A stretch of 32,523 nt of DNA, from contig JABIFY010000121.1 in NCBI GenBank assembly GCA_018650465.1, positions 1-32,523 on the forward strand. Reading direction: 5' to 3'. The DNA is from Alphaproteobacteria bacterium. Its GTDB lineage: Bacteria; Pseudomonadota; Alphaproteobacteria; UBA2966. Positions 13,629 to 31,609 of the stretch are shown here, in pieces (position 1 is the first letter of the stretch; every line of letters begins with the position of its first letter). A model generated the notes under the pieces. It was not told where the DNA came from. It saw only the letters and a program-made list of their open reading frames with translations, and did no database searches. A program made the translations under genes and the position numbers.

Positions 13629-13637
13629 GGGGATTTG

Positions 13638-14591: not shown

Positions 14592-14606
14592 GGGACGCGC
14601 GAACAG

Positions 14607-15374: not shown

Positions 15375-16077
15375 TGTAAAAGAAGCCAGCGTTTACTTCG
15401 GGAAGGTTTCCGGGATCAGGGATGTCTCGATAGACGTTGAAGAGGGGCAGATCGTTGCTCTGATCGGGGCCAACGGCGCGGGTAAAAGTACGACCCTGAG
15501 GGCGATTTCCGGTTTGAAACAGCCTTCAAGCGGCGAAATCTGGTTCAAGGGCGAGCGCATCGACGACCTGTCGCCTGAGGAAATCACAATGAGGGGCATT
15601 GCCCATGTGCCCGAAGGACGGCGGGTTTTCCCATATATGACGGTGAAGGAAAACCTGGAGATGGGCGCTTTCTCACGCAAGGATAAGGCCGGCATCGCCC
15701 GTGACCTTGAGGGCGTGTTCAGGCATTTTCCCCGGTTACGCGAGCGCCTGACCCAGGCGGCGGGAACAATGAGTGGCGGTGAACAGCAGATGCTGGCCAT
15801 GGGCCGGGCCTTGATGTCCGACCCAACAGTCGTGCTGATGGATGAGCCATCACTGGGATTGTCGCCTATCCTTTGTCAGGAAATCGCTAAAATCATCAAG
15901 GAAATTCATGCCGAAGGTCGAACCGTTGTTCTGGTCGAACAGAACGCTCGTCTAGCCCTTTCCCTGGCGCAAAAAGGGTATGTTCTGGAGACCGGCTCGG
16001 TGGTCCTTGAGGACGACGCAAAGGCTTTGCTCGAAAACGACAAGGTCAGGGAAACCTATCTAGGCGGCAGCGATTAA
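15364..16077 (+). CDS. livF: ABC transporter ATP-binding protein, LivF type
   Basis: This second ATPase subunit has about 237 residues. It has Walker A GANGAGKST, the LivF-typical IAHVPEGRRVFPYMTVKENL segment, signature MSGGEQQMLAMGRAL, Walker B VVLMDEPSLGLSP and switch His replaced by Gln in LVEQNARLAL, as is normal for LivF. No ATG fits the family's N-terminus. The likely start is TTG at 15364 (or the adjacent TTG at 15367), 9 bases after GGAG at 15351-15354, inside the livG 3' end. A frame open back to 15274 is only the shadow of livG. Confidence 0.9.
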   Translation: MLLSVKEASVYFGKVSGIRDVSIDVEEGQIVALIGANGAGKSTTLRAISGLKQPSSGEIWFKGERIDDLSPEEITMRGIAHVPEGRRVFPYMTVKENLEMGAFSRKDKAGIARDLEGVFRHFPRLRERLTQAAGTMSGGEQQMLAMGRALMSDPTVVLMDEPSLGLSPILCQEIAKIIKEIHAEGRTVVLVEQNARLALSLAQKGYVLETGSVVLEDDAKALLENDKVRETYLGGSD

Positions 16078-17729: not shown

Positions 17730-18151
17730 CCATTCCGGAATGCGCCTTTGGATGACCCCGGATATTTCGGCAGCTCATCACTTAATGTGTAATAGTCTGC
17801 GATGTCATCGCAGTAGATATGTCCAACCTGCCTGAGGCCGCTCGGCTGGTTGAGGCAGCCGGCGCTAACCGATGTGTCGCTCGCTCCTGCCGGTTGCCAA
17901 AATAGGGATGCGCCGCACTCCTGGCAAAACCCCCGTTTTGCCTGGTCTGAAGAAACATACCATTTCAGCCCTCTGTCTTCGGTGAATTCAAGCTCATTTG
18001 TCCGGCACTGGGTGTAGGCGGCGAAGTGGCCGTGTGTGCGCCGGCACTGGCTGCAATGGCAGGCGACGACGCCTCGCAAGGACCCCCGAATTTCAAATGA
18101 AACGGCCCCGCAAAGACATCCGCCGGTAGCTGAAACGCTAACCGACGACAT
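17702..18151 (-). CDS. GFA-family (CENP-V/GFA, DUF636) zinc protein
   Basis: This 149-residue zinc-binding protein is of the family named for a glutathione-dependent formaldehyde-activating enzyme; the family's true activity is disputed. It has GGCLCGAVSFE, CHCSQCRRTHG and FCQECGASLFW, giving the usual seven Cys for two zinc sites. It is the last gene after soxG and overlaps it by 14 bases, so it is co-transcribed. Because the sox-type enzyme can release formaldehyde, handling of formaldehyde or its glutathione adduct is a reasonable inference. Confidence 0.85.
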   Translation of the reverse strand: MSSVSVSATGGCLCGAVSFEIRGSLRGVVACHCSQCRRTHGHFAAYTQCRTNELEFTEDRGLKWYVSSDQAKRGFCQECGASLFWQPAGASDTSVSAGCLNQPSGLRQVGHIYCDDIADYYTLSDELPKYPGSSKGAFRNGQARLPDDK

Positions 18152-18710
18152 TTTGAATGGATGTTTCGACGGCGTGCAGGAATGAGGCCGCCGATGATGA
18201 GGCGGTGATCAGAAGGAAGCTATCCGCACCGTCGGGTAAAATGATCACGCCCATGTGCTCCATAGAGGTGCGGGCGACTTTTCCTTCGGCAAACCGGGAC
18301 GGCTCGAGATCAAGCGGACAGATGCGTTCAAGAACGTCGCGGCTCTTCGATCCTGACAGACGCAAGCCGACCCAGTTGTCCGATTGCGAAGTGAGATAAG
18401 CAACGTCCTTCAGTTTTCCGCCGACAATGTCAACGGCGTCCGGCTCCGTGTGATCGAAGATGGCGAACATCTGGTCTCGGGCCATTCCCAGAAAGCGGGT
18501 CTGGCCGTCTTTGGAGAGGCTGACCTCACCGGTTTTTGGAAGGGCCGCGCCGTAGCCGTCTTTCAGCGCCTTGACCAACGCATCCTCTCCGCCAATAGGC
18601 GTAGCGATGGAAACGATAGCGAGCCCGGTTTGTTCCTCAAGGGACACGCCTTCAAAGGTTTCCTGATATCCACCCAACGCTGGTTGAGCTGTTAAGGTAT
18701 ACTCAGACAC
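18138..18710 (-). CDS. soxG: sarcosine oxidase-type gamma subunit
   Basis: This 190-residue small subunit belongs to the heterotetrameric sarcosine oxidase / N-methylglutamate dehydrogenase complex and has a GcvT-like fold that helps close the folate site. It shows SDNWVGLRLSGSKSRDVLERICPLDL (cut by family-typical spacing) and ARTSMEHMGVIILP, standard for SoxG. Start is a GTG at 18708-18710 with AAGGAG about 8 bases upstream, giving an 8-base overlap with soxA; a frame reaching 18809 is the shadow of soxA. Length fits the family. Confidence 0.85.
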   Translation of the reverse strand: MSEYTLTAQPALGGYQETFEGVSLEEQTGLAIVSIATPIGGEDALVKALKDGYGAALPKTGEVSLSKDGQTRFLGMARDQMFAIFDHTEPDAVDIVGGKLKDVAYLTSQSDNWVGLRLSGSKSRDVLERICPLDLEPSRFAEGKVARTSMEHMGVIILPDGADSFLLITASSSAASFLHAVETSIQNVVG

Positions 18711-21651
18711 GCAGACGTTCTCCTTCCGGATCGATGAAGTGGGCCGAAACGATCTCGACTTCAATATCCTTGCCACGCACCAGGTCGACGGCGCGGACAA
18801 CCTCGCCAAGGCGCTCGGACCCTTGCTTGATAAAGCCGATGCCGATCGAATGCCCCAGTTCCGGCGAGAAGGTGACCGAACTCATCCAGCCTTCGTCGTT
18901 GTCCATGACGGCGCTTTTGCCCAGCGCGATAAAATGAGCGCCGGACGTCAAGGTTTCCACCCTGTTGACCGGCTTAAAGCCGACGAGGCGCAATCCGTCG
19001 TCGCGATTTAGATCGGGTCGTTCCGACAGCGTGTTGCCGATGCAGTCCTTCTTTTTCGAGACCATGCGGCCCATGCCTAAGTTCGCCGCACTCGTTTGGC
19101 CGGTCAGTTCGTTGCCTGCGGCATGGCCTTTTTCGATCCGCATGACGCCCAAGGCCTCGGTGCCATAGGGTACGACATCGAACTCTTCGCCGACCGCCAT
19201 CAGAACCCGCATCAGGGAGTCGCCATAACGCGCCGGAACGGCGATTTCGAATGCCAGTTCGCCGGAGAACGAAATGCGGAACAGTCGCGCCTTTGTTCCG
19301 CCGCAAATAGTCAACTCTGCGCATGCCATAAAAGGGAAGGCCTCGTTTGTAATGTCATGTTCCGGATCGACGACCTTTTGTAAGAGCTTGCGGGCATTAG
19401 GTCCGGCGACGGCGAACTGGGCCCAGCCATCGGTGGTCGAGATCAAATTCACGTCGAGTTCAGGCCACAGGCATTGACGGCAAAACTCCATGTGCCGGAA
19501 GACCGGTCCCGCGTTTGCCGTCGTCGTCGTCATGACGAAGTGGTGTTCGCCAAGCCGCGCCGTGGTGCCGTCGTCCATCGCCATGCCGTCCTCGCGCAGC
19601 ATCAGGCCGTAGCGGACCTTGCCGACCGCCAGTTTGGCGAAACCGTTGACGTAGAGCTTGTTCAGGAACTCAGCAGCGTCGCGGCCCTGAATGTCGATCT
19701 TTCCCAGCGTCGTGACATCGCAGACGCCGACAGAACCACGGGTTCCGGCGACTTCGCGATCAACGCTTTCGCGCCAGTGAGTTTCATCCGGACGCGGGAA
19801 CCACTGGGCGCGCAACCACATGCCGGTGGTGACGAAAACAGCGCCTTGTTCCTCCGCCCACTTGTGGCTGGGCGTCAGTCGGTAGGGACGGAAGTCCTTG
19901 CCGCGCGCCCGTCCGGCCAACGCGCCCATGGCAATGGGCGTGTAGGGGGGACGGAAGATGGTGGTTCCGGTTTCCGGGATCGTTTTGCCGGTGCATTCGG
20001 CCATGATTGCCAGCGCCAGCATGTTCGCCGTTTTGCCCTGATCCGTCGCCATGCCGAGCGTTGTGTAGCGTTTCAGATGCTCGACCGAGCGATAACTTTC
20101 ACGGTGTGCCAGCTTGACATCCTTGGCCGTGACGTCATTTTGCTGATCGAGCCAGGCCCGCGCCTTGCTCTCGCCAACATGCCAGAAAGCGGTGATATCA
20201 GCCGCCTCATCCTCGGCCTTAACCATGTCGCCGCCATTTGGCGAGATACCGAGATCATTGAGCGCTTTTTCGGACGCCGCGCGTCCTTCTGACAGGGCGG
20301 CGGCCAGCGTCAGCGCGCCGTTTGCCGCACCGGCAACCGCCATGCCGGCAGGCAGGTCTTCACCCGGCACGAAGGCGGCCAGGTCTTCGCGCCATGCCGG
20401 ACGACCGCGCTGGTGGCCCGTCAAGTGAACATTCGGGTTCCAACCGCCTGAAACGGCAAGGCAATCGGCGTCAATCGTCCGCCCGTCGACAAGCTTGATT
20501 GAACGGATGCCCTTGCGGCCACAGGTATCCATGACCCGACCGCCCATGGCGACGGTCGCGCCCGGAATCTGCGCCCGTGGCTCACCGTCGCGGCTGTCGA
20601 TGATGGCAGAGATGGTGACGCCGGCTCGAGAAAGATCGCTCGCCGTGCGCCAGCCGTCATCATTGTTGGTAAAGACGGCGACACGTTTACCCGGCGCCGC
20701 GGCCCAGCGGTTGGCGTAAGCCCTGACGGCCCCGGCCAGCATCACGCCCGGACGGTCGTTGTTGCCGAAGGCGATGGGGCGTTCGGTCGCTCCGGCGCAG
20801 AGAACCGCGCGCTTCGAATAAATGCGCCAGAGAATCTGACGCGGCTTGCCACTCGAAGTCGGCAAATGGTCGGTCATGCGTTCAAGTGCGCCATAAATCC
20901 CGTGATCGTAGGCCCCATAGACGGTGGTGCGCGTCATCAGCCGGACGTTATCCATGGCGGTGAGTTCCGCGCGGGCCCTCTCCGCCCAATCGGAACCCGG
21001 CATGGCATCCACTTCGAACGTCTCAGCATTCAGCCGGCCGCCAAAAAGGAAATCCTCGTCGGCAAGGATCACGCGCGCGCCGGAGCGACCCGCGGTGAGC
21101 GCCGCGGAAAGCCCGGCTGGGCCGCCGCCGATGACGAGAAGATCACAATGCAAGAAACCCTTGTCATAGATATCCGGATCCTCTTGGCCGGATAGGCGGC
21201 CAAGGCCGGCGGAGTGGCGGATGATCGGCTCGTAAACTTTTTCCCAAAACGATTTCGGCCACATGAATGTCTTGTAGTAAAACCCCGCCGACAGGAACCG
21301 CGAGAAAAGGTCCGTCACCTCCATCAAGTCGGTTTCGAGCGAGCCGCGATGGTTCTGGCTTGTCGCGGCGAGGCCGTCGAAAAGCTCGGCAACGGTAGCC
21401 CGGGTGTTCGGTTCCTGATGCGCACCGGCCCGCAATTGAACGAGGGCGTTCGGTTCCTCAGAGCCAGCAGTAAGTACGCCCCTTGGGCGGTGATACTTGA
21501 ACGACCGTCCCATCATCCGTTGGCCATTGGCAAGCAGGGCGGAGGCCAGCGTGTCGCCGGGATGGCCCTGCAAGTTTTTGCCGTTGAAGGTAAAATTCAA
21601 CGTCTTCGAGCGATCAACGAGACCCCCGGATATGCGGTTTGTTTGTGTCAT
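18703..21651 (-). CDS. soxA: sarcosine oxidase-type alpha subunit
   Basis: This 982-residue large subunit binds NAD+ and tetrahydrofolate, transferring the methyl-derived C1 unit to give 5,10-methylene-tetrahydrofolate. The N-terminal part (about 15-100) is the 2Fe-2S-ferredoxin-like fold found in SoxA. The dinucleotide-binding site GGGPAG is at 175-180, followed by a pyridine-nucleotide oxidoreductase domain to about 480. The GcvT-like folate domain (about 590-975) includes GSVGVCDVTTLGKIDIQG and PYGTEALGVMRIEKGH. The same architecture serves as MgdC in the N-methylglutamate pathway, and sequence alone does not separate the two. Start overlaps the soxD stop as ATGA. Confidence 0.92.
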   Translation of the reverse strand: MTQTNRISGGLVDRSKTLNFTFNGKNLQGHPGDTLASALLANGQRMMGRSFKYHRPRGVLTAGSEEPNALVQLRAGAHQEPNTRATVAELFDGLAATSQNHRGSLETDLMEVTDLFSRFLSAGFYYKTFMWPKSFWEKVYEPIIRHSAGLGRLSGQEDPDIYDKGFLHCDLLVIGGGPAGLSAALTAGRSGARVILADEDFLFGGRLNAETFEVDAMPGSDWAERARAELTAMDNVRLMTRTTVYGAYDHGIYGALERMTDHLPTSSGKPRQILWRIYSKRAVLCAGATERPIAFGNNDRPGVMLAGAVRAYANRWAAAPGKRVAVFTNNDDGWRTASDLSRAGVTISAIIDSRDGEPRAQIPGATVAMGGRVMDTCGRKGIRSIKLVDGRTIDADCLAVSGGWNPNVHLTGHQRGRPAWREDLAAFVPGEDLPAGMAVAGAANGALTLAAALSEGRAASEKALNDLGISPNGGDMVKAEDEAADITAFWHVGESKARAWLDQQNDVTAKDVKLAHRESYRSVEHLKRYTTLGMATDQGKTANMLALAIMAECTGKTIPETGTTIFRPPYTPIAMGALAGRARGKDFRPYRLTPSHKWAEEQGAVFVTTGMWLRAQWFPRPDETHWRESVDREVAGTRGSVGVCDVTTLGKIDIQGRDAAEFLNKLYVNGFAKLAVGKVRYGLMLREDGMAMDDGTTARLGEHHFVMTTTTANAGPVFRHMEFCRQCLWPELDVNLISTTDGWAQFAVAGPNARKLLQKVVDPEHDITNEAFPFMACAELTICGGTKARLFRISFSGELAFEIAVPARYGDSLMRVLMAVGEEFDVVPYGTEALGVMRIEKGHAAGNELTGQTSAANLGMGRMVSKKKDCIGNTLSERPDLNRDDGLRLVGFKPVNRVETLTSGAHFIALGKSAVMDNDEGWMSSVTFSPELGHSIGIGFIKQGSERLGEVVRAVDLVRGKDIEVEIVSAHFIDPEGERLRV

Positions 21652-21935
21652 CTGCCACGTCCCCCCGCGATGGCCACATCGCGGGCCAGCTCAACGTTGG
21701 TAATTTCATGGGTCAGGGTATCGCGGGTAACGACGAGCCAGGAACGGTCGCCCTGTTCGTGATACCACAGCTCGCGATGCTGCCCAGCAGGATTGTCGCG
21801 GATATAGAGATAGTCATGAAATTTTTCCGCCGCATTTTCATCCTGCCAGTCGGGGCGGTCGATCAGCGATGCATCGCCCAGATAGGTGAATTCCTGAGCA
21901 TCGCGCGGGCCGAGAAGCGGGTGATTGATGATCAT
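21648..21935 (-). CDS. soxD: sarcosine oxidase-type delta subunit, lacking zinc ligands
   Basis: This 95-residue small subunit shows the SoxD pattern around GPRDAQEFTYLGDA, DNPAGQHRELWYHEQGDRSW and VVTRDTLTHEI. In well-studied SoxD a zinc ion is held by CPYCG near the N-terminus and by His and Cys around residues 59-63. Here the N-terminal motif reads HPLLGPRD and the protein has no Cys at all, so that site cannot form. The divergence is in-frame and the rest is well kept, so this looks like a functional subgroup, not decay. It lies 18 bases after soxB and overlaps soxA. Confidence 0.85.
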   Translation of the reverse strand: MIINHPLLGPRDAQEFTYLGDASLIDRPDWQDENAAEKFHDYLYIRDNPAGQHRELWYHEQGDRSWLVVTRDTLTHEITNVELARDVAIAGGRGR

Positions 21936-21953
21936 CTTTCTATCTCCCCACGA

Positions 21954-23204
21954 TCAATGCAGGTTCGGTTGGGCGCCAACGCCCTTTTCGTCGATCATGG
22001 TGCCGCGCCTAAAACGGTTTAAGCGATATTCCGTCGCCGTCGGGTGCGGTTCATCACGGGCCAGCAGATGGGCAAAACAGAAACCGGACGCCGGCGTCGC
22101 CTTGAAGCCGCCGTAACACCAACCGCCATTGAAATACAGACCATCGATGTGTGTCTTGTCGATATACGGTGAACCATCCATGGACATGTCCATGATGCCG
22201 CCCCACGAGCGCAGCAAGCGGGTCCGCCCGATCATCGGCATGATCGCCATGCCGCCCTCGCAGACGTCCTCGACGACCGGCAGATTGCCGCGCTGTGCAT
22301 AGGTGTTGTAGCCGTCGATATCGCCGCCGAAGACAAGGCCGCCCTTGTCTGACTGGCTGACATAAAAATGTCCGGCGCCAAATGTGATGACGCCTGGCAG
22401 CAGCGGTTTTAATCCTTCAGTCACGAAGGCCTGCAGCACATGGCTCTCAATCGGCAAGCGCATGCCTGCCTTGGCCATGACACGGCCCGATGAGCCGGCG
22501 ACGGCGACGCCGACTTTCTTGGCGCGGATGTCTCCACGGCTTGTCTCGACGCCCATGCAGACGCCTTTATCCATGATGAAGCCCGTTACTTCACAATTTT
22601 GAATGATATCAACGCCGCGCATATCGGCGCCGCGGGCATAACCCCAGGCGACGGCGTCGTGACGAACGGTGCCGCCACGGGGCTGCCAGATGCCGCCGGT
22701 GATGGGGAAGCGGGCGTTCTCGAAATCAAGGAACGGGCACATCTGACGGACGCCATCGGCGTCAAGCAGAACCGCGTCGGCCCCGGCGAGGCGCATCGAG
22801 TTGCCGCGCCGAGCAAAGGCGTCGCGCTGCGGGTCCGAGTGGGAAAGGTTCAAAATTCCCCGTTGTGAAACCATGGCGTTGTAGTTGAAGTCCTGCTCCA
22901 ACCCTTCCCATAATTTCATTGAGAACTCATAAAAAGGCTCGTTGCCGGGAAGAAGGTAGTTCGAGCGCACGATCGTCGTATTGCGACCGACGTTGCCGGA
23001 ACCCAGCCAGCCCTTTTCGATAACGGCGACGTTGGTGACGCCAAATTCCTTGGCCAAATAATAAGCGGCAGCCAAACCATGCCCGCCGGCGCCGACAATG
23101 ATGACGTCATAAGCCGCCTTGGGGTCGGGTTCGCGCCAGGCCGGCTTCCAGCCGGTATTACCGGTGAGACCCTGCCAGATAACCTTCCAGCCCGAATAAC
23201 TCAT
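21954..23204 (-). CDS. soxB: sarcosine oxidase-type beta subunit
   Basis: This 416-residue flavoprotein is the amine-oxidising subunit of the heterotetramer: it removes hydride from the N-methyl amine at FAD, with a covalent FMN at the interface with alpha. The FAD-binding motif VIIVGAGGHGLAAAYYLAKE spans about 34-53. The presumed FMN-linking His is His182 in GGTVRHDAVAWG, matching the site known in bacterial SoxB. The conserved ending GGWCYGGFKATPASG binds FAD near the substrate. AAGGAG lies 6 bases before the ATG. This is the first gene of soxBDAG-gfa; it could equally be mgdA of N-methylglutamate dehydrogenase. Confidence 0.92.
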   Translation of the reverse strand: MSYSGWKVIWQGLTGNTGWKPAWREPDPKAAYDVIIVGAGGHGLAAAYYLAKEFGVTNVAVIEKGWLGSGNVGRNTTIVRSNYLLPGNEPFYEFSMKLWEGLEQDFNYNAMVSQRGILNLSHSDPQRDAFARRGNSMRLAGADAVLLDADGVRQMCPFLDFENARFPITGGIWQPRGGTVRHDAVAWGYARGADMRGVDIIQNCEVTGFIMDKGVCMGVETSRGDIRAKKVGVAVAGSSGRVMAKAGMRLPIESHVLQAFVTEGLKPLLPGVITFGAGHFYVSQSDKGGLVFGGDIDGYNTYAQRGNLPVVEDVCEGGMAIMPMIGRTRLLRSWGGIMDMSMDGSPYIDKTHIDGLYFNGGWCYGGFKATPASGFCFAHLLARDEPHPTATEYRLNRFRRGTMIDEKGVGAQPNLH

Positions 23205-23406
23205 CTGTCACTCCTTCGAATTCAGTTCCGGCGTCATGGCCTGTGAAATTCCGTTTGGACTTACACGAAACAAAAAAGGAAACTGAGCGCACCAAAGTCA
23301 ACCGATTTTATACCAAATGTCAACAAAAAATGCACCAAAATAGGTTGCTGGTGTATTAAATGATGAGATTGGGTCGACTTTCGTTTTGGCAAAAGGTCGT
23401 TACGGC
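23205..23406 (-). promoter_or_regulatory. soxB upstream region with GCACCA half-sites
   Basis: This 202-base gap separates the regulator gene from soxB, so the sox operon probably has its own promoter here. It contains GCACCA at 23289-23294 and again at 23332-23337, exactly 43 bases apart. The second copy forms a near-perfect inverted repeat, TGCACCA / TGGTGTA, at 23331-23337 and 23349-23355 (11-base spacer). The same half-site makes the repeat upstream of the regulator. TTGACA and TATAAA boxes occur on the minus strand, but not at good spacing, so I do not assign a promoter. Confidence 0.45.
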
Positions 23407-24132
23407 CTAATTTGAGCGAACGCTGACAAGGTCCTGGCGGGCTTTTTCGAGGTGGTTGATCATAAGTTTTTCCACATCTTCAATATCCCTGTTTTCCAAG
23501 GCAGTGTATATGGCGCGATGTTGGCTGTTGTAGGATTGGATGTTTTCCTCGGTAACAATCAGTTTTTTCATGCCGTCCCATTGAGCGTGTGAACGAACAT
23601 CGGACAGCTTTTTATAAAACCAGTAGATTAAGCGGTTATGGGAAGCGGAGGCGAGGCCCAAGTGGAATTGCTCGTCGGCTTTCGAGAAACACTCCCGGTC
23701 ACCCTGACAGTTCTCAAGGTTTTCAAGGGCCGATTTCAGTTGCTCCAGGTCGCGGATAGAGGCGTGAAGCGCCGCGAGCTTGACCATATGTGGTTCGATT
23801 GCGAGACGGGCTTCGATCAATTCCAGGGGGCTGGTTATCTCGGCGATATCCCTTTCTTCATCGTTGTTCCTGTCGGAATCGCCCTGGTAAATGACAAATG
23901 TTCCGCTGCCGACACGTCGGGCCAGCAGGCCCGTTTCCTCCAATTGATTAAGGGCTGCGCGGATGGTTCCACGCGAGGCAGAAAAAAAATCGGCCAGCTC
24001 CCGTTCGGCCGGAAGCCTTGTTTGGAAAGGGTATTCCCCTTCGAGTATGGCGCGCCGCAATCGTGCGGCGATGCTCGCTGAACCGGATTGAACCGCTTCA
24101 GGGGTGTCTGCAAATTTTGCCGTATCCGTCAA
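23407..24132 (-). CDS. GntR-family transcriptional regulator, FadR/FCD type
   Basis: This 241-residue DNA-binding regulator has an N-terminal winged helix (about 18-82) with LPAERELADFFSASRGTIRAAL as the helix-turn-helix region, then an FCD ligand-binding domain (about 100-232). The metal and ligand residues typical of FCD appear as Asp153, His157 in DEQFHLGLA, His205 and His227. The start is a TTG at 24130-24132 with GGGAG 6 bases upstream; no ATG lies before the helix-turn-helix, so low translation is likely. It stands between the soxBDAG operon and the divergent ligase operon and probably controls both, with an amine- or glutamate-derived ligand. Confidence 0.88.
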   Translation of the reverse strand: MTDTAKFADTPEAVQSGSASIAARLRRAILEGEYPFQTRLPAERELADFFSASRGTIRAALNQLEETGLLARRVGSGTFVIYQGDSDRNNDEERDIAEITSPLELIEARLAIEPHMVKLAALHASIRDLEQLKSALENLENCQGDRECFSKADEQFHLGLASASHNRLIYWFYKKLSDVRSHAQWDGMKKLIVTEENIQSYNSQHRAIYTALENRDIEDVEKLMINHLEKARQDLVSVRSN

Positions 24133-24157
24133 GTGCTACTCCCTAATTTCAGACCAA

Positions 24158-24197
24158 TTAGCACCACTGTATAAAAATGGATTGATAATGGTGCTAA
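24158..24197. promoter_or_regulatory. candidate GntR operator
   Basis: A perfect 9-bp inverted repeat, TTAGCACCA (24158-24166) and TGGTGCTAA (24189-24197), is separated by 22 bases in the divergent region between the regulator and the FAD oxidoreductase gene. An 11-bp palindrome, TTGTTTAACAA, follows at 24200-24210. The GCACCA core recurs in the soxB upstream region. FadR-type regulators often bind TGGT/ACCA half-sites, though usually closer together, so two dimers or a looped arrangement may apply. Confidence 0.5.
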
Positions 24198-24351
24198 AGT
24201 TGTTTAACAATATGCCGACAATGCAAGGACGAAAAGAAAAATGCCAACGTTTTCGACCTTATCGCGGAAAAAAACCAATTGAGCCTGTATCTATAAATAG
24301 GCGGGAAACCAAAAAGAGTCCACCGGGACGACAATCAAGGGAGTAAGTCAA

Positions 24352-25695
24352 ATGGCGATGCCGGCTCATGCCAAATACGTCATTATCGGCGCGGGAATTC
24401 ACGGTCTCAGTACGGCCTGGAATCTTGCCGAAGGGTTGAAGGCCTCGGGCAAGGGAAGCGGCGAGGACATTCTGATCCTGGATAAGGGTGGAATTGCAGC
24501 TGGTGCCAGTGGCATTGCTTGCGGGGTGATTCGAAACAACTATTTTCAACCAGCGATGCGTGAACTGATGGCCCATTCGGTCGATGTCTGGGACAGCGAT
24601 CCGGAAGCATTTAGTTATCATCAAGTCGGCTATATGCAGATCAGCGCCGAATGCATGCGCGACGATGTTCGTTCCATTTACGAACAGCAACAAGCCATCG
24701 GATACGAATCGACTTTCATAGAGGGTGCAGGAGAAACTGACACCTACATGAAGAATGTCTTTTCCGATTGGCAGGCGACGGGTGTGACATCCGTCCTTCA
24801 TGAAAAGCGCGGTGGGTTCGCCAATAATACGGCGGCGATGTACGGTTTGGCGACCAAGGCGGAAAATCTTGGCGTTCGCATCATGTCGGGTGTCACGGTG
24901 ACAGGGCTTATATCCGATGACGGCTCCGATGCGATCAAGGCGGTGGAAACTGACCGGGGCACGATCGGATGCGATGAAGTTGTCGTCGCCCTTGGGCCTT
25001 GGGTCAAGAGCGTTTGGGATATGCTCGACCTGCCGAAGACGGTCGACATAAAAGGCGCCGACGGAGCCATGCATACTGACATACCAATGTGGCGCTACTG
25101 GGCCCTGGAAGAGGGGACGCTCGGCATTGATCCGAACATTCAAAAGACCAACGATGGCGGCATGCCGCCGGTCATTCATGTCGATTCCGACGCACCGCTT
25201 TTATCCGACGTCGATGGATCACTGATCACCGACGAACTGTGGGGTATCTATTACAAGCCGGACTTCAACTTCGGTGGCATCCAGGGCGGTGCCATGCCCT
25301 ATCCGGTCAAGAAAGATGCTGATGAGGTTGAAGTCGACCCGTATGGCGTCGAATCGCCGGAGTTCATCGTTGACGATAATTTCGCTCACATGTGGTGTTC
25401 CGCCCTGGCATTCTGTCAAAAGCGTTTCGAGGGCATGATCAAACATTACAAGGACGAGCCGTCCGGCGGCATCGGTTGCTTTACACCCGATTCCTTCCCG
25501 GTATTCGACCGTTTTAGGGAAAACGTCTACATCGTTGCCGACTCCAATCACGGCTACAAGATGATTGGCGTCGGAAAATTGGTGGCCGAGGAATTGCTGG
25601 GCCAGCCGAGCGCCCTTCTGAAACCATTCTCATTCGGCCGCTACGCCCGGGGTGAACTTCACCCAGTCAGCAACAGCCCCTTCCCGTGGAGCTAG
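24352..25695 (+). CDS. DadA/DAO-family FAD-dependent amine oxidoreductase
   Basis: This 447-residue flavoenzyme of the D-amino-acid oxidase / SoxB superfamily probably oxidises a secondary or N-methyl amine. The FAD motif VIIGAGIHGLSTAWNLAE spans about 10-27, GGIAAGASGIACGVIRNNYF follows, and the C-terminal FAD segment is DSNHGYKMIGVGKLVAEEL. It lacks the soxB-style RHDAVAWG FMN-linking site. AAGGGAG lies 8 bases before the ATG. It leads the operon with the ligase and mgs-type genes, 128 bases before the ligase. It could be a one-subunit dehydrogenase for the glutamylated or N-alkylated product of this operon, or a glycine-betaine-type demethylase. The substrate cannot be read from sequence. 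Confidence 0.82.
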   Translation: MAMPAHAKYVIIGAGIHGLSTAWNLAEGLKASGKGSGEDILILDKGGIAAGASGIACGVIRNNYFQPAMRELMAHSVDVWDSDPEAFSYHQVGYMQISAECMRDDVRSIYEQQQAIGYESTFIEGAGETDTYMKNVFSDWQATGVTSVLHEKRGGFANNTAAMYGLATKAENLGVRIMSGVTVTGLISDDGSDAIKAVETDRGTIGCDEVVVALGPWVKSVWDMLDLPKTVDIKGADGAMHTDIPMWRYWALEEGTLGIDPNIQKTNDGGMPPVIHVDSDAPLLSDVDGSLITDELWGIYYKPDFNFGGIQGGAMPYPVKKDADEVEVDPYGVESPEFIVDDNFAHMWCSALAFCQKRFEGMIKHYKDEPSGGIGCFTPDSFPVFDRFRENVYIVADSNHGYKMIGVGKLVAEELLGQPSALLKPFSFGRYARGELHPVSNSPFPWS

Positions 25696-25823
25696 GCGGA
25701 GCAGGATTAATTGAAACTTTGACAAAGAGGGCACGTAAGAAAAACCAACTCACGGCATTCGAAAGCAAATTTATTATAACGACCGTGATACGAAGCCCAA
25801 TTTTTATACAGGGAGACAAATAA

Positions 25824-27296
25824 ATGACTGATCTTGAACAACATGTAGAAGCCCCGGGACGTGCCGAACTGGTGAAGCAGGTCCGTGCTAAAATCGACGA
25901 ACTTGGCATCACCTACGTATATTTCCAGTTTATTTCCGTAACCGGCCGCATTGTCGGTAAAGGCATTCCCGCCGATCATTGGGAAACCGTCGCCCAAAAG
26001 GGGTTTCAACTGGTTTACGGTTCGACCGCCAACCTTTTTGTTGACCGCCATGGGGATTATATCGGCTATGGGCCAGAGGCATCGGAACTGGTCGGTATCC
26101 CCGACCCGGAAACCTTCGTTCAGTTGCCATGGGACAAGCGAATCGCACGTGTTTACTGCACATGCTTCCGCAATCGTGAAGAGGCCGTGAATCCGGGTGG
26201 GCATCTGACATCAGATTGTCGTGGCAACCTGCGCATTCACCACAAAGAGTTCGAAAAAGATCACGGCATGCACATGCGCCTGGGTACCGAACCCGAAATG
26301 ATGTGGTTGAAAAAAGGCGAAGACGGGATGCCCGACGGCGGGTTCTCGAAGCCCAACTGTTACCATATCGATCAGTTTGAAAGCCTGCGCCCGGCCTTCA
26401 TGAAAGTAATTGAGTATTCTGCCGCGATGGGTCTGGATATGATTCAGGGCGATCACGAGGATGCCCCCGGTCAGCTTGAACTGAACTGGATGTACGATGA
26501 TTGTCTGCGCAACGCAGATCGCCTGACGACTTACCGTCAGATTTGCGCCCAGGTCGCACGCGAAATGAACCTCATTGCCTGCTTTATGACAAAGCCTTTC
26601 ATGGGGGTTTCTGCGTCGGGCTGTCATCACAATATGTCCCTTTGGACGGGTGGTGAAGATCACTTGGTCAACACGGCCCATGTCGATTCTCTTCCCGGCA
26701 TGGACGGAAACTACAGTTATCGCAAAGGCGGCGAAAACCATTTCATGCCTGATCCGTCAATCGATGCCAGGAAGCCGGGCCCTATCGGCCTGCAATCCAT
26801 TGGCGGCGTCATCAAGCATCTGGGTGCATTGACTTCGATCGGATCATCGACAGTTAACTCTTACCGACGGTTATGGGATACGGGCTTCTGGGCACCGGTC
26901 TTTGCCGATTGGGGCTATCAGAACAGAACGTGCGCACTGCGTATTTCTGCTCCCGGTCGCTTCGAATATCGCTCGGTCGATTCAATGGTCAATCCGTACC
27001 TGATGTCTTCGGCCCTGCTGAAGGCGTTCGATGACGGCATCAGGAACGATCTTGATCCGGGTGAGGCGGAAGAGCGCAACATTTACGATGCCATCGACGC
27101 CGGTAAGCAAGTCAAAAAGCTTCCGATGTCTCTTGGTGAAGCGCTGGTTGAACTCGAAGCCGACGATGTCGTCAAATCGGCAATGCCCGATGAAATGTAC
27201 AGGGTCTTCGAACATTACAAACGTGACGAGTGGGAGAAGTTCAATCACACCGTTACGGATTGGGACATGGAAACATATTGGGACTGCCTGCCTTAA
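25824..27296 (+). CDS. glutamine synthetase-family ligase (probable gamma-glutamylmethylamide synthetase)
   Basis: This 490-residue ATP-dependent ligase joins glutamate to ammonia or an amine. The glutamine-synthetase catalytic set is present: Glu156/Glu158 in GTEPEMMW, DHEDAPGQLELNW (210-222), His268/His269 in SASGCHHN, Arg in NSYRRLW, NRTCALRI, and Glu381/Arg383 in FEYRSVDSMVNPYL. It is longer than the roughly 435-residue GlnT/GmaS proteins I know, and its N-terminal domain (VYFQFISVTGRIVGKGIP) is of a different type, so the amine may not be methylamine. The following mgsABC-type genes support gamma-glutamylmethylamide synthetase (GmaS) by context. GGGAGA lies 8 bases before the ATG. Confidence 0.8.
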   Translation: MTDLEQHVEAPGRAELVKQVRAKIDELGITYVYFQFISVTGRIVGKGIPADHWETVAQKGFQLVYGSTANLFVDRHGDYIGYGPEASELVGIPDPETFVQLPWDKRIARVYCTCFRNREEAVNPGGHLTSDCRGNLRIHHKEFEKDHGMHMRLGTEPEMMWLKKGEDGMPDGGFSKPNCYHIDQFESLRPAFMKVIEYSAAMGLDMIQGDHEDAPGQLELNWMYDDCLRNADRLTTYRQICAQVAREMNLIACFMTKPFMGVSASGCHHNMSLWTGGEDHLVNTAHVDSLPGMDGNYSYRKGGENHFMPDPSIDARKPGPIGLQSIGGVIKHLGALTSIGSSTVNSYRRLWDTGFWAPVFADWGYQNRTCALRISAPGRFEYRSVDSMVNPYLMSSALLKAFDDGIRNDLDPGEAEERNIYDAIDAGKQVKKLPMSLGEALVELEADDVVKSAMPDEMYRVFEHYKRDEWEKFNHTVTDWDMETYWDCLP

Positions 27297-27348
27297 GTTT
27301 TTTAAGGGTGAACAGACAATTTTTTTTGAAAGAGGAGAGTTCTAACAA

Positions 27349-28284
27349 ATGTGTGGAATTGCAGGAATCATTCACCGCAAAAAAGGCGGAGATGTGGGCA
27401 CGGAAATGACTTCCATGCTCAGGGCCCTGAAGCATCGTGGTCCGGATTCAACCGGCTTTGCCTTGTACGGCGAGCCGGCTGAGGGTGAATATGTGATGCG
27501 TTATAAAATCGCTGAACAGGAAGAACTGTCATCGGGTTTTCATATTCATAAGGAACTTGAAGAGCGCAAAGCCCTCGTTGACGAAAGGCTGCGTGGCCTG
27601 GGCGTGGAAATTCTTTCCGAAGAAGCCGTGACGGAATATGCCTACCGCTGCCGTATCAAGTTCGATGGTGACATGCGCAAGATGGCGGATTTCATTGAAG
27701 ACGTTGACGGCGTTGAAATCCTTTCCATCGGCGAAGGCCTGGAACTGGTCAAGGACCTAGGCGATGCAGATGTCGTCTCCGACCAGTACAGCCTGAATGG
27801 TTTTGCCGGTACCCATGGTCTTGGCCATACCCGTATGGCGACGGAATCAGATGTCGATATCCGCTCGGCTCACCCGTACTGGGCTTATCCGTTCAAGGAT
27901 GTTTCCGTGGTTCACAATGGTCAGCTGACCAACTACTGGAATTTCCGCCGCCAGCTGGAACATCGTGGCCATCGTTTCGTGTCCAATTGTGACTCCGAAC
28001 TGATTGCCGTTTACCTGGCGGACAAGATGGACCAGGGCAAGGACCTGGAAGAGTCCATGACCGACTCACTGTCAGAACTGGACGGCGCGTTCACCTATCT
28101 CGTCGCCACGACTGACAAGCTGGGCATGGCGAAAGACACAATGGCTGCCAAACCAATGGTCATTTACGAATCGGACGACATGGTAGTGCTGGCTTCCGAA
28201 GAAGTCGCCATCCGCAGCATTTTCCCGCACGAGGTCGATACATTTGATCCATATGAAGGAGAGGTTCGGGTATGGGAACGCTAA
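27349..28284 (+). CDS. mgsA: class II glutamine amidotransferase subunit (MgsA/GlxB type)
   Basis: This 311-residue subunit corresponds to the amidotransferase domain of glutamate synthase and would release the amine from a gamma-glutamyl amide. The nucleophile is Cys2 in MCGIAGI. Other class II residues are in RGPDSTGFALYG, GHTRMATES, VHNGQLTNYWNF and NCDSELIAVYL. An inserted region (about 60-145) is normal for MgsA/GlxB. In the N-methylglutamate pathway it forms N-methylglutamate synthase with MgsB and MgsC. GAGGAG precedes the ATG, and the 3' end overlaps mgsB by 13 bases. Confidence 0.88.
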   Translation: MCGIAGIIHRKKGGDVGTEMTSMLRALKHRGPDSTGFALYGEPAEGEYVMRYKIAEQEELSSGFHIHKELEERKALVDERLRGLGVEILSEEAVTEYAYRCRIKFDGDMRKMADFIEDVDGVEILSIGEGLELVKDLGDADVVSDQYSLNGFAGTHGLGHTRMATESDVDIRSAHPYWAYPFKDVSVVHNGQLTNYWNFRRQLEHRGHRFVSNCDSELIAVYLADKMDQGKDLEESMTDSLSELDGAFTYLVATTDKLGMAKDTMAAKPMVIYESDDMVVLASEEVAIRSIFPHEVDTFDPYEGEVRVWER

Positions 28285-29123
28285 ACGACGAACAACATAA
28301 AAGTTACGACATGGGCATGCACACCGAGCAACTCTCTGGCCGGACGATGCAAAAATTCTTCTCGCTTGATGAAGACGGCGGACGGTTTACCCAACCGTAT
28401 ACTCACGATGTTGACTTCGATAAAAAGGCCGATCTTGACATCAAGGATATGGAAGCTTCGGAAGTAAACACCAAGATACGCGAGCTGATGGCTGAAGGTT
28501 ATGGTCATATCGTGATCAAAAACCCGCTGGCTAAACACTCCATTTGTGTTGGCATCCTCAATCGTTTGAAGGTCGATATTGAAGGCAGCCTGGGCTACTT
28601 CGGTTGCGGTTTGATCGATGGACCCAACGTTCGCATTACCGGTCGTGTTGGCTGGTCGTGTGCTGAAAACATGATGTCCGGTACCGTTGTTATCGAAAAG
28701 AATGCCGGCTCCACTTTTGGTGCCGCCATTCGTGGCGGAGACCTGGTCTGCAAGGGTGATGTTGGTTCGCGTACCGGCATCGACCAAAAGGGCGGCAATA
28801 TCATTGTTGGCGGTTCAACCGGCGCGTTTTCCGGCTTCATGATGCAGCGTGGCCGCATGGTTATTTTGGGTAATGCTGGCATCAACCTGGGCGATTCAAT
28901 GTACGACGGCACTATTTATGTTGGTGGCGATGTCGAATCTTATGGCGTTGACGCCGTGCCCGGTGAAATGACCGACATGGACGCCAAATGGCTGGAAGAT
29001 AAGTTGAACCTTTACGGCATGAAAGCGCCGAACGGAATTTCCAAAATGAAGAAGATCGTCGCCGGTAAACAGCTTTGGAACTACGACAATCTTGAGCCAA
29101 CCGAAAAGAAGATCATTCTTTAG
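28272..29123 (+). CDS. mgsB: GXGXG-domain subunit (MgsB/GlxC type)
   Basis: This 283-residue subunit is equivalent to the C-terminal beta-helix domain of glutamate synthase. The repeating glycine pattern shows in CGLIDGPNVRITGRVGWSC, GAAIRGGDLVCKGDVGSRTG, GGNIIVGGSTGAF, MVILGNAGINLGDSMYDG and TIYVGGDVESYG (about 110-220). The domain has a structural role, linking ammonia or amine transfer between the amidotransferase and FMN subunits. Before it lies an acidic N-terminal stretch of about 70 residues. AAGGAG is 10 bases before the ATG at 28272; later in-frame ATGs could give a shorter form. Confidence 0.85.
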   Translation: MGTLNDEQHKSYDMGMHTEQLSGRTMQKFFSLDEDGGRFTQPYTHDVDFDKKADLDIKDMEASEVNTKIRELMAEGYGHIVIKNPLAKHSICVGILNRLKVDIEGSLGYFGCGLIDGPNVRITGRVGWSCAENMMSGTVVIEKNAGSTFGAAIRGGDLVCKGDVGSRTGIDQKGGNIIVGGSTGAFSGFMMQRGRMVILGNAGINLGDSMYDGTIYVGGDVESYGVDAVPGEMTDMDAKWLEDKLNLYGMKAPNGISKMKKIVAGKQLWNYDNLEPTEKKIIL

Positions 29124-29140
29124 GATAATGAGGAAACATC

Positions 29141-30478
29141 ATGTCTAAACCACGTAACAAGTCGATTCTCGGAAAAAGTTTCATCTTTAAGCCTGAAGTC
29201 ATCGACGATATTCACATCAAGTCTGAACTGGGGCGTTACCGCATGCGCGGCATGTCCCTGTTCAAAAAAATACCGTCCTGGGATGATCTGACATTTATGC
29301 CCGGCACCCTGACACGCTTTGTTATTGAGGGTTATCGGGAAAAATGCGAAACCAAGACCGTCATTGGCCCGCGCGCCAAACGGCCCCTGGTTCTGGATAT
29401 TCCGATCTACATCACTGGTATGAGCTTCGGCGCTTTGTCTTTCGAAGCAAAGACAGCCCTGGCCCGTGGTGCAACCATGGCCGGAACAGCAACGTGTTCC
29501 GGTGAAGGTGGTATGATTCCCGATGAACGCCGCTATTCTGAAAAGTGGTTCTATCAATGCATTCAATCCCGTTACGGCTTTAATCCCCATCACCTTCAGC
29601 TTGCTGACGGTTGTGAGTTCTTCATCGGGCAGGGTTGTAAAGTTGGCCTTGGCGGTCACTTGATGGGCCAAAAAGTCACCGATCAGGTCGCCGAAATGCG
29701 CTCGCTTCCTGCCGGTATCGATCAGCGTTCTCCCGCCCGTCACCCAGACTGGTTGGGACCGGATGATCTGGCTTTGAAGATCAACGAAATCCGCGAAGCA
29801 ACTGATGGTCAAATTCCGATCCAGCTGAAACTGGGTGCGGCGCGTGTCTATGATGATGTCCGCATGGCCATCAAGACCAACCCGGACAGTATCTATATCG
29901 ATGGTATGGAAGGCTCTACGGGCGCTGGACCTCACCTGGCGACGGAAGAAACCGGTATTCCCGGGATCGCCGCCATCAGGCAGGCCCGCAAGGCGTTGGA
30001 TGATCTGGGTATGTCCGGCAAGATTTCGCTGGTCTACGCAGGCGGTATCCGCAACGGCGGCGACGTCGCAAAGGCGATTGCCTTGGGCGCTGATGCCATC
30101 GCCATCGGTCACTCATCTATGATGGCGCTGAATTGCAATAAGGACATCGAAGAGGCCGATTACGAGGCGGAAATGGGTGTCGAAGCTGGTGAATGCTACC
30201 ATTGTCATACGGGCCGTTGCCCGGTCGGCGTGGCGACGCAAGACCCCGAGTTGCGCAAGCGTCTGAACCCGGATGAAGCGGCAGAAAGGGTCTACAACTT
30301 CCTGCACTGCCTGACCATTGAAGCGCAAATGATGGCCCGCGCCTGCGGTAAAACCAACATTCATTCGCTTGAGCCGGAAGATTTGGCGGCGCTCACCATG
30401 GAAGCCTCCGCGCTTGCTCAGGTTCCGCTAGCCGGTTCGCAGCACACGGTCGGCCGTCCCGACATGACCCGTTATTAG
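29141..30478 (+). CDS. mgsC: FMN-binding glutamate synthase-like subunit (MgsC/GlxD type)
   Basis: This 445-residue subunit is equivalent to the FMN and iron-sulfur part of glutamate synthase. It has a TIM barrel with ITGMSFGALSFEAKTALA (about 91-108), GSTGAGPHL (258-266), and the phosphate-binding YAGGIRNGGDVAKAIALGADA (split across two strands). The 3Fe-4S cysteines are Cys352, Cys355 and Cys360 in ECYHCHTGRCPVG. It would build N-methylglutamate or a related N-alkyl amino acid from a 2-oxo acid and the amine passed from MgsA. It lies 17 bases after mgsB and 12 before the unknown 129-residue protein gene. Confidence 0.9.
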   Translation: MSKPRNKSILGKSFIFKPEVIDDIHIKSELGRYRMRGMSLFKKIPSWDDLTFMPGTLTRFVIEGYREKCETKTVIGPRAKRPLVLDIPIYITGMSFGALSFEAKTALARGATMAGTATCSGEGGMIPDERRYSEKWFYQCIQSRYGFNPHHLQLADGCEFFIGQGCKVGLGGHLMGQKVTDQVAEMRSLPAGIDQRSPARHPDWLGPDDLALKINEIREATDGQIPIQLKLGAARVYDDVRMAIKTNPDSIYIDGMEGSTGAGPHLATEETGIPGIAAIRQARKALDDLGMSGKISLVYAGGIRNGGDVAKAIALGADAIAIGHSSMMALNCNKDIEEADYEAEMGVEAGECYHCHTGRCPVGVATQDPELRKRLNPDEAAERVYNFLHCLTIEAQMMARACGKTNIHSLEPEDLAALTMEASALAQVPLAGSQHTVGRPDMTRY

Positions 30479-30490
30479 GAGGAAAAGAGA

Positions 30491-30880
30491 ATGAGCGATA
30501 AAATTGATATCGACCACTTTCTAACGACCGATGGTCTTGATTCCGAGCGAGAGCAGGAAATCGGCCAGCATATCGGTTACCGTTATGATGTGAACCTGGT
30601 GCCTGATTTGAACCGCCTGACGCCGTATCTGAAAGACTACATGGAAGTTATGGGGTGGTCGGACCTGAACTGGCTGGAAGACGTCCACCTCGGTTACGAG
30701 GAAGGCAAGGCTGCCGTGTTCGATCGTAACATCAACGGTTGGGTTCAGGTGCCCGACGACATCAAACTACCCGACAATCAGCAAGACAGGGACATGATCG
30801 CACGGGAATTACTGCTCAAATTCCAGATGTCCGATCGCCATCCCCTGGTTCAGTTGAAGGCGGCGTACAAGAAGTTCTAG
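30491..30880 (+). CDS. uncharacterised 129-residue acidic protein
   Basis: I do not recognise this gene. It encodes a soluble 129-residue protein with no signal peptide, no membrane helix and no Cys, rich in Asp, Glu and aromatic residues, including PYLKDYMEVMGWSDLNWLED. The N-terminal half is acidic and the tail basic (LKAAYKKF). AGGAGG lies 8 bases before the ATG, among the strongest ribosome sites in the window, so it is well translated. It is 12 bases after mgsC and directly before two terminators, so it is the last gene of the operon. A small accessory subunit or assembly factor for the MgsABC-like enzyme is a fair guess from position only. Confidence 0.8.
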   Translation: MSDKIDIDHFLTTDGLDSEREQEIGQHIGYRYDVNLVPDLNRLTPYLKDYMEVMGWSDLNWLEDVHLGYEEGKAAVFDRNINGWVQVPDDIKLPDNQQDRDMIARELLLKFQMSDRHPLVQLKAAYKKF

Positions 30881-30910
30881 CCTATCCTCCCTGATAAATA
30901 GGCGGACTAT

Positions 30911-30949
30911 GCCCGGTTTCACTTTCCCCCAGTGAAACCGGGCGTTTTT
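30911..30949 (+). terminator. intrinsic terminator of the ligase-mgs operon
   Basis: A perfect 13-bp stem, GCCCGGTTTCACT / AGTGAAACCGGGC, with a 7-base loop is followed by GTTTTT. It starts 30 bases after the stop of the 129-residue gene. Stem strength and T-tract are those of a standard Rho-independent terminator. Confidence 0.93.
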
Positions 30950-31011: not shown

Positions 31012-31049
31012 GAGCAACTTATCCGCGTTTGATTTTACGCAGGTTGCTC
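31012..31049 (-). terminator. terminator-like hairpin after the 186-residue gene
   Basis: GAGCAAC (31012-31018) pairs with GTTGCTC (31043-31049), extended by a G-U and an A-T pair, and an inner GCGT/ACGC pair at 31025-31028 and 31037-31040 extends the fold. Read on the minus strand it starts at the stop codon and is followed by a T-rich stretch, so it could end the minus-strand transcript. Confidence 0.45.
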
Positions 31050-31609
31050 TAATCGCCTGCCGAGGTGTAGGCCGCACCCGCCCAGTCAGGAGAGAAGGAC
31101 AGAATTATAGAGCTTTCGGAGATATGTGGGTTGAACATGTGATTGTGCCAGAAAGTCGCTTGCCAAGCGGGAACATCCTTCTTCAACTCGGAAACGGTGC
31201 AGGGGATTGAGAAGGATTGGCCGAATTGGCTGAATTCCAGTCGACCGGCTCCTTCCTTCAATAGCGACGCCGCGATGCCAGAGCCTTCGGAAAACAAGGC
31301 CGTCATCTGATCGGAGAATTCATTGGGGTATTGATAATGAAGGGTACTCACCAGCTTGATGGCGTCGTCCACCCTTTTTTGCGGATCGTGGGTTCGTGTG
31401 ACGATATGACGAAATTCACTGGTCGAGGCTTTGGGGTCATTATGTACGATCAAAACGGTGATGTTTTCGATGATGGCGGTGCCGTCAACGCCTGTAAAAC
31501 TCGGCATCATGCCGGGCTGCGGCTTGCCGTTATGCTTGCGGACCGATAATTGCCGGATACGGCATTGCCAAGCAAAGAACTGCTCGCGGATCGTTTCTGT
31601 CATCTCCAT
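31049..31609 (-). CDS. uncharacterised 186-residue protein
   Basis: I do not recognise a named family. The protein is soluble, with no signal peptide or membrane helix. Its start is marked by REQFFAWQCRIRQLSVRK, and GKPQPGMMPSF follows. The middle holds mixed strands and helices, with PQKRVDDAIKLVSTLHYQYP and FSDQMTALFSEGSGIAASLL. It has one Cys and two HN/HM-containing segments near the end (FWHNHMFNPHISES). The ATG at 31609 has GGAG 5 bases upstream (a second ATG is two codons on). It is divergent from the ferredoxin gene with an 81-base gap. Codon use and a good ribosome site indicate a real gene. Confidence 0.75.
   Translation of the reverse strand: MEMTETIREQFFAWQCRIRQLSVRKHNGKPQPGMMPSFTGVDGTAIIENITVLIVHNDPKASTSEFRHIVTRTHDPQKRVDDAIKLVSTLHYQYPNEFSDQMTALFSEGSGIAASLLKEGAGRLEFSQFGQSFSIPCTVSELKKDVPAWQATFWHNHMFNPHISESSIILSFSPDWAGAAYTSAGD

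Follow-up and report, generated by a model that had tools for sequence, protein, structure and literature searches.

Which amine is taken up by a glutamine synthetase (GS)-type ligase that is encoded together with a glutamate-synthase-like enzyme is the question raised by an operon at positions 24352-30880 of a 32,523-nucleotide stretch of alphaproteobacterial DNA (GenBank assembly GCA_018650465.1, contig JABIFY010000121.1). The stretch, hereafter the window, makes up the entire contig G000:C159 in a draft genome that totals 4.8 Mb. In a first-pass annotation it had been proposed that an amine other than methylamine is glutamylated, transferred to form an N-alkyl amino acid and then oxidised by enzymes of this operon. 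This is the reading favoured here, and the amine proposed is dimethylamine (DMA), which arises from the demethylation of trimethylamine N-oxide (TMAO) by marine bacteria and is linked to marine aerosols. With a probability of roughly 0.6, the operon encodes a glutamate-mediated DMA route that would replace the DMA monooxygenase DmmDABC in the pathway from trimethylamine (TMA) through TMAO and DMA to glutamate. The first-pass interpretation as a whole is partly supported by the analyses described below.

The six genes lie on the + strand at the positions, and belong to the families, that had been claimed for them, as judged by Pfam and NCBIfam. They encode a DAO-family flavin adenine dinucleotide (FAD) oxidoreductase of 447 residues (24352-25695; PF01266, 124 bits), proposed as an N,N-dimethylglutamate demethylase; the GS-type ligase of 490 residues (25824-27296; PF00120 Gln-synt_C, 264 bits), proposed as a gamma-glutamyl-dimethylamide synthetase; an MgsA/GlxB-like class II glutamine amidotransferase subunit (27349-28284; GATase_6/7, N-terminal MCGIAG); an MgsB/GlxC-like GXGXG subunit (28272-29123; PF01493, 65 bits); an MgsC/GlxD-like flavin mononucleotide (FMN) glutamate-synthase subunit (29141-30478; PF01645 Glu_synthase, 297 bits); and U129 (30491-30880), a protein of 129 residues and of no known family, proposed as a subunit or partner of the synthase.

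In a tree of 52 rows, the ligase forms a separate clade (support 100/99) outside GmaS, E. coli GlnA and E. coli PuuA, and the GmaS clade itself (support 97/93) includes the GlnT of Paracoccus aminophilus; the deep order of the tree is unsure because of several long branches, as indicated by a warning of the tool. The ligase scores 297.6 bits with the GmaS model TIGR03105, the cut-off of which (469.6) is exceeded by the canonical GmaS proteins, 245.5 bits with the GlnA model (cut-off 429.15) and 211.6 bits with the PuuA model NF045547 (cut-off 650), and its identity to canonical GmaS is about 26-30%. It thus lies outside the GmaS clade, in line with the unusual enzyme of the first-pass annotation. 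The N-terminal region, described there as a non-GlnT domain, is rather a divergent beta-grasp (PF03951, 22.4 bits, below the cut-off of 33.4) than a foreign domain, and the extra length of the ligase is due to an insertion at about residues 279-316 that is common to its closest aligned relatives, for example the paralogues on Ruegeria and Paracoccus plasmids (52-54% identity).

The methylamine-pocket residues are known for the GmaS of Rhodovulum, RhGmaS (PMC7948447; the papers given here by PMC number are cited from excerpts). In the alignment, residues Y180, Q208, D210, E212, E219 and N221 of the ligase correspond to Y147, Q175, D177, E179, E186 and N188 of RhGmaS, and K46 aligns with the GmaS lysine taken as Lys30', with a numbering offset deduced from the motif. 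The ATP (adenosine triphosphate)-binding residue Tyr174 of RhGmaS is Ile207 in the ligase, and the ammonium-binding Asp50 of GS is replaced by Tyr65. A GmaS-like pocket combined with the loss of Asp50 therefore points to a small-amine gamma-glutamyl ligase and not to glutamine synthesis; identity as a glutamine synthetase was rejected on the absence of Asp50. RhGmaS itself takes DMA poorly, with a Km of 16 mM as against 27 uM for methylamine (PMC7948447); formation of the bond is therefore possible, but a specialised ligase would be required.

The occurrence of the ligase was compared with those of Tdm (the TMAO demethylase), DmmA-like proteins (PF11927) and canonical GmaS in 289 genomes from the same class as the window; judged by the named relatives, this class is taken to be Alphaproteobacteria. 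The thresholds were E <= 1e-150 for Tdm and for the ligase and E <= 1e-120 for canonical GmaS, and PF11927 matches of over 100 bits, a threshold of our own, were regarded as strong. Tdm was identified in 23 genomes, the ligase in 28, PF11927 in 37 and canonical GmaS in 49. Tdm is present in 18 of the 28 ligase-bearing genomes and in 5 of the 261 other Alphaproteobacteria (Fisher p=2e-17). Among the 23 genomes with Tdm, a strong PF11927 match occurs in none of the 18 that carry the ligase vs four of the five that lack it (G036, G172, G264 and G295; p=5.6e-4); the fifth, G271, is a genome of the G044 order with a contig that stops within tdm. When counted by family, with G271 excluded, the values are 0/10 vs 3/3 (p=0.0035). 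A DmmA-like match is missing from 26 of the 28 ligase-bearing class genomes, being present in G044 (weak) and G278 (strong), and the window's own genome has no PF11927 match at E <= 1e-10. In the ligase-free G264, one 20-kb stretch holds Tdm, Tmm, GmaS, open reading frames (ORFs) resembling mgsABC, an Amt-type gene, the PF11927 protein, which has no NCBIfam match at E <= 1e-15, and a lone GcvT protein that is DmmD-like by position.

The association with Tdm is also seen within the order of G044, represented here by 120 genomes. These genomes are 0.7-1.6 Mb in size and the order is taken to be SAR11, the best DNA matches of its loci being nearly all named Pelagibacteraceae loci. The ligase is encoded in 52 and Tdm in 58 of them, with 50 carrying both, two the ligase only, eight Tdm only and 60 neither (p=1e-22). 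Seven of the eight Tdm-only genomes are explicable by contig ends, because their contigs past tdm are shorter than 11.9 kb, the shortest tdm-ligase spacing among 30 same-genus pairs (the commonest being 13.2 kb). In G368, the remaining one, the contig extends 14.4 kb beyond tdm. In a mixed set of 50 genomes, chosen by us from the 80 behind the named loci, the omitted ones being mostly short contigs and near duplicates, and including gammaproteobacteria and cyanobacteria, Tdm is present in 39 and PF11927 in two (G430 and G436). Given the near exclusion between the ligase and the DmmA-like proteins, Dmm and the ligase unit seem to occupy the same metabolic place.

Genes for TMA and TMAO metabolism often surround the unit in its relatives. 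NCBIfam comparisons gave 1087 bits for Tdm in the Pelagibacteraceae locus L109, just below the cut-off of 1100, and 1210 bits in L107; 801 bits for Tmm (cut-off 675) immediately 5' of the ligase in the cyanobacterial locus L106; 831 bits for a TMAO permease in L040 (cut-off 690); 626 bits for a true GmaS in L109; and 176 and 230 bits for Amt-type transporters near the unit, under the model cut-off of 343. ATP-binding cassette (ABC) genes in this setting were taken by us to be TmoXWV-like on the basis of their order and of the SAR11 papers; the substrate-binding protein compared has no NCBIfam match. Across 92 clustered loci, the flanks of which vary in length, Amt was found in 44, a GcvT protein of Tdm length in 29, a TmoX-like protein in 20, a gmaS-like gene in 15 and a Tmm-like protein in six. 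The gene order in L109 is TmoX-like, Tdm, small unknown protein, DAO, ligase, mgsABC, U129 and Amt, and one contig of G301, a member of the G044 order, carries Tdm, Tmm, soxBA, an extra mgsABC, DAO and the ligase with its own mgsABC within 20 kb.

Canonical GmaS is encoded in 20 of the 28 ligase-bearing class genomes. An ordinary N-methylglutamate operon was rejected on this additional GmaS and on the position of the ligase outside the GmaS clade. The other eight genomes, some of which are incomplete, have no canonical GmaS match, and five of the eight carry Tdm, as would be expected if the nitrogen of DMA reaches glutamate without free methylamine. Canonical GmaS likewise gave no match at E <= 1e-120 in the window's own genome, and a GS on its contig 28 was rejected as a canonical GmaS (219 vs 469.6 bits, TIGR03105). 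These data bear on the explanation that survives best beside the DMA route, namely a second methylamine system in which the ligase is a divergent GmaS isoenzyme, MgsABC makes N-methylglutamate and the link with Tdm arises since methylamine ends the TMAO pathway. The retention of the GmaS pocket residues, the presence of proteins of the same types as in the N-methylglutamate pathway and the eight genomes lacking canonical GmaS are in its favour. It is nevertheless considered unlikely, as 20 genomes also possess canonical GmaS and as it accounts neither for the near exclusion with DmmA-like proteins nor for the use of DMA by SAR11 bacteria that lack dmmDABC and grow on TMAO nitrogen, as excerpted from PMC5520151 and PMC8918994.

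The conservation of the unit helps to define its core. The grouping is far from accidental: of 96 genomes, the window's own counted, 13 encode the ligase (E <= 1e-60), and U129 (E <= 0.001) occurs in exactly these 13. In a scan of named genomes, the best 80 of at least 543 stretches encoding a ligase relative belong to alpha-, gamma- and betaproteobacteria, including Pelagibacteraceae (SAR11) and Thioglobus/SUP05, and also comprise six cyanobacterial loci and one metagenome-assembled genome labelled Flavobacteriales. Gene order was surveyed in 79 loci (L052-L130), of which 55 extend at least 4.2 kb past the ligase and 66 at least 2.6 kb upstream, with identity thresholds of our own choice. MgsA, MgsB and MgsC follow the ligase in 49 of the 55, and the order ligase-A-B-C-U129 is fixed in all 49; the six exceptions, with no mgsABC-U129 3' of the ligase, are five cyanobacterial loci and L102. 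Upstream, DAO lies immediately 5' of the ligase in 27 of the 66 loci, and a divergent GntR homologue is located upstream of it in 30. Since the order is invariant (49/49) and DAO is not always the adjacent upstream gene (27/66), the core is considered to be ligase-MgsABC-U129 with DAO as an optional component. The leading position of the oxidoreductase, a part of the six-gene order for which a neighbourhood survey had been suggested, is thus variable. The optional DAO, together with the missing mgsABC after the cyanobacterial ligase, implies that the downstream steps may vary by host.

These gene orders are also relevant to a second alternative, in which DMA is glutamylated as proposed and the amide itself loses a methyl group, through DAO or, in cyanobacteria, a PhyH-type dioxygenase; the resulting gamma-glutamylmethylamide would enter the ordinary GmaS/MgsABC route. 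PhyH-type genes are found in six of the 92 clustered loci (cyanobacterial L113, L125 and L127; L040, L102 and L111) and the mgsABC unit is missing 3' of the ligase in the five cyanobacterial loci, both in favour of this alternative. Elsewhere, however, the ligase is tied to its own MgsABC-U129 (49/55) more firmly than to DAO (27/66), and direct demethylation of the amide is regarded as improbable. That the ligase takes another amine altogether (ethylamine, ethanolamine or a diamine) and that the TMAO linkage reflects general clustering of amine genes would suit the 52-54% identical relatives that have different neighbours on plasmids of Ruegeria and Paracoccus and the ten ligase-bearing genomes without Tdm, yet appears very improbable, as the association with Tdm is found in the class set, the G044 order and the mixed set with its gammaproteobacteria and cyanobacteria, and the near exclusion with DmmA-like proteins points to a single step of the TMAO route.

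U129 has no match in Pfam or NCBIfam at E <= 0.001; a comparison with PDB gave chance-level rows (best E 0.039) and later structure and fold searches gave none at E <= 0.001. Two predicted structures, the second from a deeper alignment, have mean confidence scores (pLDDT) of 75.5 and 77.8. The protein is 65-88% identical across 12 other alignment rows, and its gene lies within 600 bases 3' of the mgsC-like gene in all 49 loci where the mgsC-like gene is complete and the sequence long enough. Searches of plasmids with U129 and with DAO gave no match at the limits applied. U129 is probably a fourth subunit or an assembly partner of the MgsABC-like synthase.

In the DMA route preferred here, the ligase would join DMA to the gamma-carboxyl group of glutamate at the expense of ATP, giving gamma-glutamyl-dimethylamide. 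The MgsA-like amidotransferase would free DMA from this amide and hand it to the FMN subunit MgsC, which would reductively aminate 2-oxoglutarate, so that the amide, 2-oxoglutarate and two electrons yield N,N-dimethylglutamate and glutamate; U129 would probably take part in this step as the additional subunit or assembly partner. DAO, where present, may strip one methyl group to leave N-methylglutamate, and the second would be removed by a soxBDAG-type N-methylglutamate dehydrogenase (MgdABCD), regenerating glutamate. MgdABCD is known to demethylate N-methylglutamate to glutamate. The whole proposed gene set, from ligase to dehydrogenase, is present within 18138-30880 of the window. A self-contained route had been called conceivable; this part of the earlier interpretation is less well supported, since only 27 of the 66 loci have DAO as the adjacent upstream gene and the probable dehydrogenase genes are neighbours of the operon (18138-23204). 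An oxygenase-free first step of DMA use of a kind not described before, consisting of a gamma-glutamyl-dimethylamide synthetase and a four-part N,N-dimethylglutamate synthase (MgsABC-like proteins and U129), is given even odds.

Several observations weigh against the DMA route and have to be set beside the evidence above. DMA is the inferred substrate of the ligase, and co-occurrence cannot separate it from methylamine with certainty; the evidence is equally blind to the identity of the downstream intermediate. Ten of the 28 ligase-bearing class genomes are without Tdm. The window's own genome is one that gave no match (E <= 1e-150) when searched for Tdm, the one gene of the Tdm, Tmm and TmoXWV group covered there, therefore its DMA would need an outside source. 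Three ligase-bearing genomes also encode a strong DmmA-like protein: G278, with a more distant ligase (63% identity) and no Tdm, and G430 and G436, both with Tdm. Weak PF11927 matches occur in G044 (51 bits) and G271 (59 bits). Moreover, PF11927 stands for DmmA by Pfam assignment and position only, and the genomes compared include related ones, which are not independent. At the level of gene order, no mgsABC-U129 follows the ligase in L102 and the five cyanobacterial loci, and 39 of the 66 loci have no DAO directly upstream.

The proposed route would be of particular relevance to SAR11. In these bacteria, dmmDABC has been reported as absent from all representatives and its absence called a 'metabolic bottleneck' (Lidbury et al. 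2017, PMC5520151), while strain HTCC1062 grows with TMAO as sole nitrogen source and an isoenzyme of DmmDABC has been suggested (PMC8918994). Of the genes of HTCC1062, SAR11_1302-1304 have been listed as glycine betaine transporter, aminomethyltransferase and monomeric sarcosine oxidase and SAR11_1313-1316 as glxBCD and glnT (Sun et al. 2011, PMC3160333), SAR11_1305 as 'glnT' and SAR11_1302 as opuAC (PMC5069961), and SAR11_1309 as a hypothetical protein preceding SAR11_1310 amt (PMC2704228). Compared by description only, the printed locus numbers and names of SAR11_1304, 1305 and 1309 fit the order of L109; the excerpts name them as monomeric sarcosine oxidase, glnT and hypothetical protein and assign them no role in DMA use. 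The GntR-family TmoR of Ruegeria pomeroyi responds mainly to DMA, and a dmmA-deletion strain of this species is reported to be unable to grow on the substrate of the blocked step (PMC13390433). No account of a DMA-glutamylation route was found in the parts consulted of the open-licence PubMed Central literature, preprints and subscription papers being outside this scope, and there the names gamma-glutamyl-dimethylamide and dimethylglutamate gave matches in medical papers only, where they probably denote a reagent.

The operon is thus a concrete candidate for the missing DMA step in very abundant ocean bacteria. If the reading is true, N,N-dimethylglutamate is a new pathway intermediate, the reported DMA gap of SAR11 is closed, and the same unit serves Thioglobus and other gammaproteobacteria, with the ligase alone shared with cyanobacteria. 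It is further predicted that the names glutamine synthetase, sarcosine oxidase and glutamate synthase have been wrongly given to genes of SAR11, and that the use of DMA in the ocean is underestimated where dmm genes alone are counted.

Other features of the window were also analysed. A GntR/FCD regulator (23407-24132, - strand; PF00392 and PF07729), the start codon of which is unsure, is divergent from the operon. Two terminators had been thought to bound the operon; only one strong hairpin was found, 3' of U129 (30909-30945, + strand; 15 pairs, eight of them G-C, followed by a T-run), and the scan gave no comparable second. The region contains five terminator-like sites and shuffled sequences average more (mean 8.3), so that only the 15-pair hairpin is notable. 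Adjoining the operon on the - strand are genes for a SoxB/MgdA-like subunit (21954-23204; TIGR01373, 688 bits), a SoxD/MgdB-like subunit of 95 residues (21648-21935; a frame translation named from its position and look), a SoxA/MgdC-like subunit (18703-21651; TIGR01372, 1347 bits) and a SoxG/MgdD-like subunit (18138-18809; TIGR01375, 60 bits, short of the cut-off of 144), which together probably encode the N-methylglutamate dehydrogenase. The SoxB is 77% identical to that adjoining gmaS/mgsABC on pAMI6 of P. aminophilus, and the nearest solved sequence to DAO is the beta subunit of heterotetrameric sarcosine oxidase (E 2.7e-14). On the other side, orf186 (31049-31609, - strand) encodes a protein without a Pfam or NCBIfam match that recurs beside the operon, its family being found in 18 of the 92 clustered loci; it may belong to methylated-amine metabolism because its homologues lie directly 3' of canonical gmaS in L049 (6526-7113) and L101 (17457-18077).

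Farther from the operon, positions 201-10751 encode TorR, TorS and TorT and a two-ORF formate dehydrogenase of the nicotinamide adenine dinucleotide (NAD) type, which fits TMAO sensing and one-carbon oxidation. Within 5070-6472 lie a nitrilase-type amidase, with 50-60% identical homologues beside the operon in L039, L041 and L047, and a FolB-domain protein, with 36% identical homologues near it in L043, L119 and L126. A branched-chain-type ABC importer (11208-16077) may carry a substrate of the pathway because 70-71% identical homologues of its binding protein stand beside the operon in L062 and L105.

Related genes were also observed in other settings. Among the cyanobacterial ligases without mgsABC-U129, that of L106 lies beside Tmm, that of L113 with Amt and PhyH, and that of L127 with Tmm, PhyH, a further GS-like protein and a short protein resembling Tdm. 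The 52-54% identical relatives on the Paracoccus and Ruegeria plasmids (L164 and L165) stand next to type 1 glutamine amidotransferases and a further, divergent GS, and the Ruegeria locus also holds a cytochrome P450; these loci may represent another glutamylation route. On the Gordonia plasmid pGKT2 (L167, 8001-12151), a 40% identical relative runs into an FAD oxidoreductase with a P450 adjacent, which we take to be the xplA/xplB explosive-degradation locus. The window's own genome has a second mgsABC-like set on contig 28 (L037, 3708-11918), with MgsC 51-52% identical, the divergent GS of 219 bits mentioned above and ABC importer genes upstream. Another mgsABC type, with MgsA and MgsC about 40-45% identical to those of the window, occurs a few kb from the operon in L039 (1017-3814), L041 (15798-18604), L054 (4247-6142) and L099 (1742-3637).

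Three known systems provide a comparison. In the gamma-glutamylputrescine pathway, the GS-type ligase PuuA glutamylates an amine ahead of its oxidation; the ligase of the window is likewise GS-type, but belongs to a separate clade and reaches less than a third of the 650 bits set for PuuA. The N-methylglutamate pathway (GmaS, MgsABC, MgdABCD) is similar in its GS-type ligase, in its three-subunit glutamate-synthase-like enzyme with the GATase, GXGXG and Glu_synthase subunits in that order in the operon, and in the soxBDAG-type dehydrogenase nearby; it differs in that the ligase of the window lies in another clade, far under the TIGR03105 cut-off, and in that U129 and DAO are additional, and its canonical set often coexists with an operon of the window type. 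With DmmDABC, the unit shares no homology but the same proposed metabolic place, after Tdm, which it would fill by means of ATP and glutamate where DmmDABC employs an oxygenase.

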